From assembly GCA_022508805.1 (NCBI GenBank), contig JAFLUM010000001.1, forward strand, positions 62,001-126,000: a DNA stretch of 64,000 nt, written 5' to 3'. Below the pieces are notes generated by a model. That model ran no database searches, was not told the DNA's origin, and worked only from the letters and a program-made list of their open reading frames with translations. Made by a program: the position numbers and the translations under genes. Positions 21,307-53,122 of the stretch are shown one piece after another. The DNA is from Oscillospiraceae bacterium. GTDB lineage: Bacteria > Bacillota > Clostridia > Oscillospirales > Acutalibacteraceae. Each line of letters opens with the position of its first letter. The first letter of the stretch is position 1.

Positions 21307-21583
21307 CAAATAAATACACGGCCTACAAACCTATGAGGAAGAGTAGTAGTTGTTACGATTCGTTTTCAGAGAGCCGCCGTCGGTGCAAGTGCGGTAACGA
21401 TAACATCAGCGAATGGACTTCTGAGGGCAATCCGAGCACGGTTTCGTGTTAGGTGCGACGGAGAGCAACCGTTACAGTGCTTAGCGTATGTCAGTACGCG
21501 GGTGAGTGCATATCTTTCGATATGAATTTGGGTGGTACCGCAGGCAATTTCCCTGTCCCATATTTTTGGGGCAGGTTTTTTTA
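21307..21583 (+). ncRNA. T-box riboswitch, tryptophan specific
   Basis: The leader has the T-box sequence GGGTGGTACCGC (about 21530-21541) and stem I elements with CAGAGAGCC and CGGTGCAAG. The likely specifier codon is TGG (21414-21416), directly after GAA in GAATGGACTTC, which reads tRNA-Trp. The terminator is CCTGTCCC (21552-21559) with GGGGCAGG (21568-21575) and a run of seven Ts. Uncharged tRNA-Trp would pair with TGG and the T-box, favour the antiterminator, and switch on the transporter genes when tryptophan is short. Confidence 0.93.
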
Positions 21584-50104: not shown

Positions 50105-50614
50105 TTATATTTCCGTTTCGATGACCCTACCTGCCGCAAGGGATTTTTTTGTGTCTATCACCCGCTGATTGGTCGAGCCGCGAAACTTACAGTTAAGAGA
50201 TTTTTTTGAAAGCTCAAATTTTCCGTCAATGAGAATATCGGTCTCTTCTAAAAGATGATGCCAACCCTCGTTTTTGGTCATTCCTTTACAGAGCTGTTCA
50301 AAGGTATAACCCGTATAGGTGACCACATCAAGACCGAGCTTGTGCACCTCATTTGCCAGTACGGAAAAGCTCTCCGCCTGCTCAAAGGGATCGCCGCCGC
50401 TTAAGGTCACGCCCTTTAAAAGCGGGTCTTTTTTTATTTCCGTAAGTATCTTGTCGGTGTCGCTCATATATCCGCCGTTATAATCGTGGGTCTGCGGATT
50501 GTGACAGCCCTCACAATGATGCGGACACCCTTGCGAGAACACCACAAAGCGCCAACCGGGACCGTCCACAACAGATTCGCGGATAACGCCCGCAAGACGT
50601 AAGGGAGCCGCCAT
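50105..50614 (-). CDS. nrdG: Anaerobic ribonucleotide reductase activating protein
   Basis: A 169-residue radical-SAM enzyme. It has the cluster cysteines C30, C34 and C37 (QGCPHHCEGCHN), a glycine-rich VTLSGGDPFEQ that binds S-adenosylmethionine, and DILIDGKFELSKKSLNCKFRGSTNQRVID at the end. It abstracts hydrogen to make the glycyl radical of the class III reductase. Its ATG overlaps the stop of the small glycyl-radical gene (TAATG), so the activator and its target domain are translated together. Confidence 0.95.
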   Translation of the reverse strand: MAAPLRLAGVIRESVVDGPGWRFVVFSQGCPHHCEGCHNPQTHDYNGGYMSDTDKILTEIKKDPLLKGVTLSGGDPFEQAESFSVLANEVHKLGLDVVTYTGYTFEQLCKGMTKNEGWHHLLEETDILIDGKFELSKKSLNCKFRGSTNQRVIDTKKSLAAGRVIETEI

Positions 50615-50793
50615 TATACCTGCTCCATTTCTCCCTTGCCCGTACCGATGGAGTGCTTAACTCTGTCCTGTACCTCGGCATATTTTGCGTCGTTAAAACG
50701 GTCAAGAGTACCTACGAGATATCCTGTGATTCTTCTGATTCTCTCAAAGCCTACGCCTTCGCCTACAATTACTTTTTCTTCTTTCTTTGCCAT
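50614..50793 (-). CDS. Stand-alone glycyl-radical domain of the class III ribonucleotide reductase
   Basis: A 59-residue gene between nrdD and nrdG. The product has GVGFERIRRITGYLVGTLD followed by RFNDAKYAEVQDRVKH, which matches the C-terminal radical loop of NrdD proteins (RRVCGYLG ... RVKH in E. coli); the predicted radical residue is Gly24. The neighbouring nrdD product ends without this loop, so the reductase appears to be split into two chains. The gene has its own GGAGG, starts 13 bp past the nrdD stop in a different frame, and overlaps nrdG by one base, so it is neither read-through nor a simple frameshift. It should dock on NrdD and receive its radical from NrdG. Confidence 0.85.
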   Translation of the reverse strand: MAKKEEKVIVGEGVGFERIRRITGYLVGTLDRFNDAKYAEVQDRVKHSIGTGKGEMEQV

Positions 50794-50806
50794 TTTTGTT
50801 TCCTCC

Positions 50807-53122
50807 TTATTGTACGGGATTGGGGAGCTTGTCAGCTTCCTCTAATGTATTTTCGTCACAGCAGTGAACATTTCTGTCATAGCCCTTAAGCTTTTTGAGA
50901 ACCTCTATATCGACGCCCTCGCCATCACGGCGTCCGCAGCGCGGGCAAACGTCGCCGATAATTCCGGTGTATCCGCATACGGGGTCGCGGTCAACGGGAT
51001 GGTTGATGGAGCCGTAGCCGATTCCCGCATCGTACATACAGCGGATGACAGCCTCAAAGGCTTCAAGGTTTTGGGTGGGGTCGCCGTCCATCTCCACATA
51101 AGAGATATGTCCGCCGTTTGTCAATGCGTGATACGGTGCTTCAAGACGGATCTTATCGAATGCGGCAATGGGGAAATATACGGGAATGTGGAAGGAGTTC
51201 GTGTAATACGCTCTGTCCGTTACGCCCTCGATAACGCCGTAACGCTCTCTGTCCATTCTTACAAATCTGCCCGAAAGTCCCTCGGCGGGGGTGGCGATAA
51301 GTGAGAAATTAAGTCCCGTCATTTCGCTTGCCTCGTCGGCTCTCTGACGCATATGGTGGATTATCTCAAGGCCCAAATTCTGTGCTTCTTTTGACTCACC
51401 GTGATGCTTACCGATAAGACATTTGAGTGTCTCGGCAAGTCCGATGAAGCCTATTGTCAGAGTACCGTGCTTTAAGACCTCTCTGACCTCGTCGTCGATA
51501 CCCAGCTTATCGGAATCTATCCAAATGCCCTGACCCATAAGGAACGGGTAATTTCTTACTCTTCTCTTTGCCTGTATCTCAAAGCGTTCAAGAAGCTGAG
51601 ATATTACTATATCTATTTTTCTGTCAAGCTCCTCAAAGAAATAATCGAGATTCCCGTGAGCCTTGATAGCTATTCTCGGCAGGTTTACCGATGTAAAGCT
51701 CAGGTTTCCTCTGCCGCCCGTTACACTGCGTGTTTTATCAAAGTTATTTGCCATAACTCTTGTGCGGCAGCCCATATATGCGACCTCGGTGTTAGGATCG
51801 CCCTCAACGTAGAAGTCCTTGTTAAAGGGAGCATCCAAGAATGAGAAGTTGGGGAAAAGGCGCTTTGCGGATACTCTGCAAGCAAGTTTAAACAGATCGT
51901 AGTTGGGGTCGCCGGGGTTATAGCTTACGCCCGCCTTGAGCTTGAATATATGTATGGGGAAAACGGGTGTCTCGCCGTTGCCGAGACCCGCCTCGGTGGC
52001 GAGCATAACGTTTTTCGTTACCATTCTGCCCTCGGGGGTGGTGTCGGTACCGTAGTTGATGGAGGAGAACGGTATCTGAGCGCCTGCACGTGAATGCATG
52101 GTGTTAAGGTTATGAACGAGAGCCTCCATTGCCTGATATGTGGCACGGTCAGTCTCCTCCGCCGCCTTTTTAACGGCGAAATCCTGCGCCCTCTTTATGT
52201 CCTCGTCGGAAAGCTTCAGCTTTGCCGAGAGTTCCTTAGCCTCATATTTCTGATAGTCGTTATCGTTGGCAAGGCAGGGAATCACGCCTTTTTTCTCGCT
52301 GACGGCATCGCATATGTCCTTCGCGACCTGTTTTGCATCCTCAATGCCGCAGGAAAGCTCAAGAGCTTTTGAAAGATTGTCAAGATATTTTTTCTTATAC
52401 GTTTTTCTGACACCCGGCGCCATTCCGTAATCGAAATTCGGGATGCTCTGACCGCCGTGCTGGTCATTCTGATTGGACTGAATAGCGATACAGGCAAGGG
52501 CCGAATAGCTGGCTATATCATTGGGTTCGCGCAAAAAGCCGTGACCCGTTGAAAATCCGCCGTCAAAAAGCTTTAAGATGTCTATCTGACAGCAGGTTGT
52601 TGTGAGAGTGAGAAAATCCATATCGTGAATATGAATGTCACCCTCTTGGTGCGCCTTGGCATGCTCGGGCTTTAAAATGTGAAGCACATTGAACTGCTTT
52701 GCGCCCTCAGAGCCGTATTTAAGCATAGTGCCCATCGAGGTGTCGCCGTCGATGTTGGCGTTTTCACGCTTAACGTCATTGTCCTTTGCGGAGACGAAGG
52801 TGAGATCCTCGTATGTCTTCATAAGACGTGTGTTCATTTCACGGACGCGTGAACGCTCCGCTCTGTAGAGGATGAACTTTTTGGCGGTTCTGGCGTGACC
52901 CGTCTCGATAAGAGTCTTTTCAACATAGTCCTGAATCTGCTCAACGGTGGGTTTAGGTATGCCGTCGCGCTCAATATACTGTATCGCCTTACGCGCTACG
53001 TCTAAAGCCTCGTCATAATCTCTGCCGCCCGTCGCTTTGGCAGCCTGATAAACCGCATTTGCAATTTTCTCAATGGAAAAATCCACCTCACGGCCGTCAC
53101 GTTTTACAATCTTCTCAATCAT
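50807..53122 (-). CDS. nrdD: Anaerobic (class III) ribonucleoside-triphosphate reductase, large chain without glycyl loop
   Basis: A 771-residue enzyme making deoxyribonucleotides without oxygen. The ATP-cone (about 1-95; IVKRDGREVDFSIEKIANAVYQA) gives allosteric control. The barrel follows, with MDFLTLTTTCCQIDI and MGCRTRVMANNFD carrying active-site cysteines and NLSFTSVNLPRIAI. Near the C terminus is a cysteine set, CGYTGIIGDVCPRCG, where one ligand of the usual four-cysteine zinc site is missing from the first pair. The RxxGYL radical loop that should come next is absent; the chain ends NTLEEADKLPNPVQ. The loop is on the next gene, 13 bp downstream. Confidence 0.93.
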   Translation of the reverse strand: MIEKIVKRDGREVDFSIEKIANAVYQAAKATGGRDYDEALDVARKAIQYIERDGIPKPTVEQIQDYVEKTLIETGHARTAKKFILYRAERSRVREMNTRLMKTYEDLTFVSAKDNDVKRENANIDGDTSMGTMLKYGSEGAKQFNVLHILKPEHAKAHQEGDIHIHDMDFLTLTTTCCQIDILKLFDGGFSTGHGFLREPNDIASYSALACIAIQSNQNDQHGGQSIPNFDYGMAPGVRKTYKKKYLDNLSKALELSCGIEDAKQVAKDICDAVSEKKGVIPCLANDNDYQKYEAKELSAKLKLSDEDIKRAQDFAVKKAAEETDRATYQAMEALVHNLNTMHSRAGAQIPFSSINYGTDTTPEGRMVTKNVMLATEAGLGNGETPVFPIHIFKLKAGVSYNPGDPNYDLFKLACRVSAKRLFPNFSFLDAPFNKDFYVEGDPNTEVAYMGCRTRVMANNFDKTRSVTGGRGNLSFTSVNLPRIAIKAHGNLDYFFEELDRKIDIVISQLLERFEIQAKRRVRNYPFLMGQGIWIDSDKLGIDDEVREVLKHGTLTIGFIGLAETLKCLIGKHHGESKEAQNLGLEIIHHMRQRADEASEMTGLNFSLIATPAEGLSGRFVRMDRERYGVIEGVTDRAYYTNSFHIPVYFPIAAFDKIRLEAPYHALTNGGHISYVEMDGDPTQNLEAFEAVIRCMYDAGIGYGSINHPVDRDPVCGYTGIIGDVCPRCGRRDGEGVDIEVLKKLKGYDRNVHCCDENTLEEADKLPNPVQ

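Follow-up and report, generated by a model that had tools for sequence, protein, structure and literature searches.

The locus described here lies in a 64,000-nucleotide (nt) stretch of the genome of an Oscillospiraceae bacterium (Acutalibacteraceae; assembly GCA_022508805.1, contig JAFLUM010000001.1, positions 62,001-126,000), hereafter the window, and encodes a class III ribonucleotide reductase (RNR) whose glycyl-radical loop is carried by a gene of its own. All three genes of the locus are on the reverse strand. The large subunit of 771 amino acids (aa) is encoded by nrdD (50807..53122), which is separated by a 13-nt gap (50794..50806) from the gene for a stand-alone glycyl-radical subunit of 59 aa, named NrdD-GRD (50614..50793), and this is followed by nrdG (50105..50614) for the radical S-adenosylmethionine activase (169 aa; TIGR02491, 146 bits, above cut-off). 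The small gene is in a different frame from nrdD, GGAGG stands straight after the nrdD stop codon in CAATAAGGAGGAAACAAAAATGGCA, and the small-gene stop and the nrdG ATG have one base in common, so the three genes look translationally coupled. This layout is as proposed in an initial annotation made from the sequence alone, which gave the small gene its own frame and GGAGG and an overlap with nrdG.

NrdD matches PF13597 (NRDD; E 8.9e-194, 645.7 bits, residues 120-753) and NF005497 (1113 bits). It begins with an ATP-cone (residues 4-91, 52850..53113; PF03477, E 1.9e-20), followed by NANIDGD (residues 121-127, 52742..52762), which, by way of a fused relative aligned with the P. copri NrdD structure 8p23, is the probable counterpart of the NxN flap that the accessible text of PMC11226230 describes together with the radical Gly711. 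The finger loop MGCRTRV (residues 450-456, 51755..51775) holds the presumed thiyl-radical Cys452 and is of the single-cysteine type, MGCR being a described motif class (PMC9669993, accessible part). The zinc-site region DRDPVCGYTG...CPRCGR (residues 711-731, 50930..50992), where the fused relative aligns with 8p23, is predicted to bind zinc. The initial annotation was right that no loop follows this site, but not that the protein stops there: NrdD continues for 40 residues past CPRCGR (residues 732-771, GEGVDIEVLKKLKGY...EEADKLPNPV, 50810..50929), and this tail resembles the loop profile in hhalign and is probably a decayed copy of the loop domain.

The part missing from NrdD is found on NrdD-GRD. 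Of the 562 positions of the NRDD profile, 1-547 fall on NrdD and 533-562 on the 59-aa protein (E 2.7e-7), both above the curated cut-off, and positions 711-744 of NF005497 also match the small protein (E 9.3e-12), which bears out the proposed separation of loop and catalytic chain. The RxxGYL motif does not occur on the NrdD chain, and the 59-aa protein corresponds to the last 30 NRDD profile positions only, with FERIRRITGYLVGT...DRVKH. RRITGYLVG occupies residues 20-28, placing the glycine at residue 24, as had been read (codon 50722..50724); this is the predicted radical site and the equivalent of Gly711 of P. copri NrdD. The conserved core FERIRRITGYLVGTLDRFNDAKYAEVQDRVKH (residues 16-47, 50653..50748) was delimited in the loop alignment A1 (16 sequences), and the same stretch of the fused relative aligns with the C-terminus of P. 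copri NrdD. F, RIRRITGYLVGT, N, AK, E, DR and KH are invariant across A1, which together with 60-91% identity over the matched part (among the matches listed) indicates that the 59-aa gene is not a chance open reading frame (ORF). PF01228, which we take to be the loop domain of the pyruvate formate-lyase (PFL) type, gave no match on the 59-aa protein at E<=1; the match is to NRDD instead.

The assembly (1.96 Mb, 99.19% complete) contains exactly two NRDD matches, nrdD and the small gene, and one match to A1. Neither a second nrdD nor a class I/II RNR large subunit (PF02867) was found in it, the same PF02867 search giving matches in 11 of 14 control genomes. Since no other NrdD or class I/II RNR was found, the split enzyme should be the sole RNR of this genome and supply its deoxynucleoside triphosphates (dNTPs), unless another RNR sits in the missing part of the assembly. 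The claim that the loop gene is the only copy thus holds within its own genome but does not extend to relatives, which have up to four (G257; G and L numbers label the genomes and loci compared). Elsewhere in the window, a T-box leader (RF00230, 105.3 bits) lies at 21324-21563.

Distribution and origin of the split architecture

The sister species of the same genus (G029) has the same gene pair at 91% identity, with a gap 24 nt longer and contigs that break inside nrdD. In the genus mates compared, NrdD belongs to another lineage, about 23-31% identical, and if its C-terminus is present the profile match extends as far as position 562; some genus mates (G001, G036) have two full-length copies, pointing to RNR replacement or transfer within the genus. 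The 59-aa protein was matched in 127 of 300 family genomes, on both short and ~800-aa frames. A scan of named genomes gave at least 589 relatives, of which the best 80, ranked by likeness to the 59-aa peptide, were analysed, so that proportions are not frequency estimates. By script, 51 of these records are split, 14 fused, 10 stand-alone and 3 stand-alone with little upstream sequence, and two were set aside (L153 and L192, with overlapping frames), which are split by their coordinates and bring the count to 53 of 80. Split records not marked as metagenome-assembled genomes (MAGs) are Massiliimalia timonensis (L194) and Oscillospiraceae bacterium MH27-2 (L169); the best 80 also include a third record without the MAG mark, Bacterium 1XD42-1 (L151), alongside MAGs whose labels, which may be wrong, are Butyricicoccus, Mogibacterium, Bacilli, Fibrobacter, Desulfovibrio and others. 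NrdD proteins ending before the loop with a short gene downstream, a search for which had been suggested as a check, are thus many and come from several lineages.

The 52 split loci scored, 51 from genomes and one viral, have 1-411 nt between stop and start (median 50), a 23/21/8 distribution of relative frames and, in 45 cases, nrdG downstream. Among loop genes on frames <300 aa, scored at the ATG nearest the loop regardless of its Shine-Dalgarno sequence, 48 of 65 from hosts and 46 of 74 from viral records are preceded by a match of 5-6 of 6 to AGGAGG, compared with 302 of 4170 ATGs taken at random. The two-piece class III RNR is real and conserved. G225 has a tandem pair of loop genes downstream of a single loopless nrdD (L087, 3949-4374, contig C61) and, on contig C99, a second divergent NrdD in which serine replaces the radical glycine (RRITSYL; L331, 1037-3368); this copy may need a loop supplied in trans, or else be in decay. 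In G625, nrdD is apparently broken before the zinc site, and the zinc region and loop stand beside nrdG on another contig (L321 and L322, contigs C3 and C35), perhaps through insertion or rearrangement.

A need for the peptide would mean that a loopless NrdD never occurs in a genome that lacks a stand-alone loop gene. This prediction was tested in 118 genomes of the order (>=95% complete), taking as loopless a near-full NrdD that ends at NRDD profile position 530-547 and counting loopless proteins and adjacency by eye from the match tables; partial matches ending elsewhere, e.g. in G804 (1-445), G841 (1-512) and the second copies of G798, G238 and G138, were not scored as loopless. NRDD matches were present in 114 genomes and a loopless NrdD in 31, and all 31 have a stand-alone loop gene: just downstream of nrdD in 26, with both genes at contig ends in one (G238) and on other contigs in four. 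PF02867 was searched in 32 loopless genomes (30 of the 31, G580 and G029), with no match in 23 and a match in nine, four of them weak; eight of the 23 have a second NrdD-like gene. Counting the window's own genome, no RNR besides the loopless NrdD was found in 16 of 33.

Four genomes of one genus (G844, G854, G834 and G595) combine a NrdD whose end is a remnant of the loop helix (HERIKRIISESCSCND, CERIPRIKV, TERVERIKL and SSERVARIKA) with a sole A1 match on another contig, in a longer loop protein with an additional N-terminal domain (N-domain, see below), and neither a class I/II RNR nor a second NrdD was found in any of the four. All loop proteins that this genus (g141) has away from nrdD include the N-domain. 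The sister species G824, assembled as a single contig, has a fused NrdD with FERIRRITGYLVG and the same kind of N-domain protein 372 kb away, and CGRSDHGDNTRFERIRRITGYLVG in G824 stands at the site of CGRSDHGDNTRCERIPRIKV in G854. The cis loop has decayed, then, in genomes where a trans copy exists. The four do not form one clade on a careful tree (p-AU 0.039), which means that the cis loop either was lost repeatedly or came back. In G580, from another family, the unlinked pattern is repeated, but a class I/II-type RNR is also present. At the level of sequence, the unlinked cases are the nearest equivalent of a genetic complementation test, and the trans copy looks obligatory in some species.

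The tails of loopless NrdD proteins bear on how the split arose. The window's tail, GEGVDIEVLKKLKGY...LEEADKLPNPV, lines up with GEGVGFERIRRITGY...AEVQDRVKHSI of the loop peptide. For 72 NrdD tails compared with loop heads, the best ungapped match was 20.5 versus 8.6 for shuffles (60 shuffles per tail), with p<=0.05 in 39 of 72 versus 1 of 72 when the heads were reversed; tails <15 residues were left out, as were L317 and L320, whose relic tails would favour decay. MAFFT placed 14 of 14 fused loops on the NrdD tail, which gap costs by themselves may encourage. Trees of NrdD, built from 102-104 proteins, require six or more switches between the fused and loopless states, five or six of them forced by starred branches, so the split had several origins or reversals, or spread horizontally. 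The first tree left out exact duplicates and any NrdD ORF that was <45% identical to that of the window, began beyond query residue 60 or stopped short of residue 730, and the second also left out L331, with its loop glycine changed to serine, and the contig-cut L003. Taken with the relic tails, the likeness of tail to loop makes it likely that the loop domain was duplicated and that the cis copy was then lost to decay: a stand-alone loop copy probably appeared, after which the loop in NrdD decayed.

Longer loop proteins and viral copies

A second kind of stand-alone loop protein is ~100 aa long, with about 50 residues ahead of the loop (TITVTGGTLPQAEINTYVEQIKAANPDKYIKTVDFTVDGEYVDVNYTYD), and is represented by 29 aligned sequences and four more. 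AlphaFold2 predicts a beta-alpha-beta-beta fold for this N-domain with a predicted local distance difference test score (pLDDT) of about 80. Pfam and NCBIfam lack a family for the N-domain, which also has no dedicated PHROG and no trustworthy sequence match in the PDB, and hhalign found no homology to NrdD or to the loop. Kinship with HPF/YfiA was considered and rejected, as Foldseek returned nothing at E<=0.001 and the best hits, HPF/YfiA-like proteins among them, were weak (E 0.039 and up). Among 391 genomes of the class, 13 match the N-domain loop protein; one is the window's own, by the loop part only, and the other 12, with architectures counted by eye from the match tables, comprise ten with a fused NrdD and two (G580, G595) with a loopless one. 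In the fused genomes G643, G663, G559 and G428 the N-domain loop gene lies directly between nrdD and nrdG. S-adenosylmethionine synthetase, whose product is the substrate of NrdG, is encoded beside it in two of the eight loci with a neighbour tested (L189 6589-7764; L088 2548-3732), the others having unrelated genes there. Of the proteins described here, the N-domain protein of fused genomes is the strongest candidate for a genuine spare part of NrdD.

Loop genes are also found in viruses, as a scan of viral records showed 343 relatives, of which 80 were analysed. Classified by script, they comprise 63 stand-alone loop genes and 13 more that have little sequence upstream, two cases with nrdD at another place on the locus, one split and one fused. 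Testing 48 of the 80 whole against NRDD found the loop only in 45 and NrdD as well in 3; none of the tested records is rated 90% complete, and NrdD could lie on the missing part of some. Phage and plasmid collections gave few matches (22, 29 and 15 records). At five of the seven viral loci with neighbours tested, these include terminase, endolysin, integrase, helicase or reverse transcriptase genes, and at two none has a named function. Orphan loop genes in host genomes likewise adjoin tail, baseplate, endolysin or integrase genes at L082 and L083 (G255) and L086 (G257); L085 (G257) has a weak tail match and L093 (G317) no phage-type neighbour, the L093 peptide being letter-identical to that of viral locus L249. 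Over the 32 codons of 73 distinct viral cores (identical cores and the fused L302 left out), the proportions of synonymous (pS) and nonsynonymous (pN) differences are 0.883, which is saturated, and 0.135, a ratio of 0.153, and the glycine is 100% conserved; the viral loop cores are under purifying selection.

Two viral contigs, L226 (250-2036) and L231 (4466-6300), carry nrdG, the loop gene and a reverse transcriptase gene (RVT_1) in this order with no nrdD on the locus, perhaps a cassette for local dNTP supply to a retroelement. Eggerthella phage EL753P1 (L306, 3741-7172) encodes a 953-aa loopless NrdD; the frame of the loop gene downstream is interrupted in the record and annotated only in part. 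There is about an even chance that the loop is an independent, exchangeable cofactor protein common to bacteria and phages, in which case split, unlinked and phage copies would plug into loopless or oxygen-cleaved host NrdD, and phages would ship a radical cartridge of ~50 residues, at two viral loci with its own activase and reverse transcriptase, that keeps up or raises host dNTP synthesis.

A proposed trans-acting radical subunit, its alternatives and known systems

The reading of a two-piece enzyme put forward in the initial annotation is supported, and the finding is wider than had been supposed, taking in several lineages, a second stand-alone kind and viral orphan genes. The locus very probably encodes a class III RNR with a separate, trans-acting and replaceable glycyl-radical subunit. 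NrdD would provide the ATP-cone, the barrel with the MGCR cysteine and the zinc site, while the 59-aa peptide would bind where a fused C-terminus would lie (the groove of P. copri residues ~704-740) and insert its RITGYL loop into the barrel. NrdG would form the radical on Gly24, which would pass it to Cys452, where catalysis would start. Glycyl-radical enzymes are cleaved by oxygen at the glycine (PMC12288474 and PMC3019208, accessible parts), and the likely pay-off of the split is that oxygen would cleave only a cheap peptide of ~6 kDa, so that the damaged enzyme could be refreshed without resynthesis of the large subunit. Binding of the peptide, radical installation in trans, replacement after damage and service of phage copies to host NrdD are all predicted. 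An AlphaFold2 model of a relative read through its stop codon gave the loop part a pLDDT <50 and no confident placement, with 0 of 14 fused rows in register with the loop part, which leaves the model neutral as to docking.

Some observations weigh against the reading of a trans-acting subunit. Another RNR candidate is present in 17 of the 33 loopless genomes (PF02867 matches in nine, four of them weak, and a second NrdD-like gene in eight), where dNTPs may thus not come from the split enzyme alone. G032 has a second, 36%-identical NrdD in pieces (L035 2-724, G032:C13), truncated inside the loop at ..RLRRVTG, and no separate loop gene was found in this genome beside its fused NrdD, so a broken loop is not always paired with a trans copy. 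In the tail comparison, 33 of the 72 single tails have no significant likeness to the loop, and the hhalign alignment of tail and loop profiles, at E 3e-4 over 41 columns, reaches a probability of only 38%.

The short distance of 13 nt between genes in different frames could suggest a single protein, with a sequencing error or a programmed frameshift joining the two frames into a normal NrdD. This is hardly credible given that the split is kept across many species, its gap varying from 1 to 411 nt and each of the three relative frames being represented among the 52 split loci, that a start with a strong Shine-Dalgarno sequence precedes the loop in 48 of 65 host cases, far above the rate at random ATGs, and that the same split is present in the sister species and the non-MAG records L194 and L169, while in four genomes the loop genes lie on other contigs. 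It is also very improbable that the small protein is a mere spare part used after oxygen damage, with NrdD working otherwise or decaying. The analogy with YfiD/GrcA (PMC8683613, accessible part) speaks for such a role, and it fits the ten class-level genomes that have both a fused NrdD and a stand-alone loop protein; the NrdD of split genomes, however, has no cis loop to repair, retains its ATP-cone, NANIDGD and MGCR motifs, and is accompanied by no other RNR found in 16 of 33.

Two further proposals would change the role of the peptide, and each is rather less easily dismissed. Phage copies might inhibit host NrdD or occupy NrdG, stopping host DNA synthesis or rival phages, for which the lack of NrdD in 45 of the 48 tested viral records could be cited, yet this is unlikely because the loop and core residues are under purifying selection and two viral loci bring their own nrdG and reverse transcriptase, which suits radical production better than blocking. 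The split might instead serve regulation, with deoxyadenosine triphosphate (dATP) fully releasing the loop subunit as a stronger form of the loop disorder reported in P. copri NrdD. The ATP-cone retained in NrdD is in keeping with this, but the orphan phage copies are left unexplained, and we give dATP release only a small chance of being the reason for the split, although it is compatible with a replaceable trans-acting radical subunit as an added role.

To our knowledge, the radical loop of known class III RNRs is always on the catalytic chain. We also know of no radical-loop peptide in the split class II RNR of Pseudomonas aeruginosa. That enzyme (PMC4520616, accessible part) is like the present one in being an RNR in two pieces, albeit of another class. 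Compared with fused NrdD proteins (P. copri, 8p23; phage T4, 1h78/1h7a), the ATP-cone, barrel, MGCR finger loop, zinc-site region, RITGYLVGT loop, C-terminal tail and adjacent nrdG are all shared, but here loop and tail (P. copri ~704-740) form a separate gene and NrdD has a decayed tail instead. Phage nrdD genes with introns, inteins or homing genes are also in pieces, as the accessible text of Dwivedi 2013 (PMC3653736) reports; unlike those insertions and fragmentations, the genes described here are two complete genes with their own starts, cut at the loop and borne on bacterial chromosomes. Literature searches and the accessible parts of PMC11226230, PMC11528403, PMC8683613, PMC9531940, PMC9669993, PMC3653736, PMC12288474 and PMC3019208 yielded no loop split and no NrdD spare part, subscription papers and preprints being thinly covered, so that a prior description may exist.

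Other close parallels are YfiD/GrcA and T4 Y06I, small free-standing glycyl-radical loop proteins, one of them phage-borne, and the likeness to GrcA/YfiD drawn in the initial annotation holds as an analogy. In contrast to these PFL partners, the peptide is predicted to serve NrdD, is the only loop in the window, has no intact enzyme beside it, and belongs to a group of 41-75 aa rather than ~14 kDa. Coexistence with a fused glycyl-radical enzyme, as for YfiD/GrcA, is not seen in the window's own genome but is seen for the ~100-aa relatives in ten class-level genomes. In the accessible text of Andorfer et al. 2021 (PMC8683613), only YfiD and Y06I are given as validated spare parts, both for PFL, with others speculated for further enzymes, and the proteins described here are concrete NrdD candidates for that speculation. 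The viral copies suggest very cheap phage support for a host enzyme that makes DNA precursors. With a natural two-piece enzyme, long-standing questions become directly accessible: the installation of the radical by NrdG, the movement of the loop into and out of the barrel, and whether dATP works by expelling the loop. Where the class III enzymes known to us keep the loop on the catalytic chain, an anaerobic gut-type bacterium has the only RNR found in its genome in two pieces, with the predicted oxygen-sensitive radical site on a tiny separate protein.

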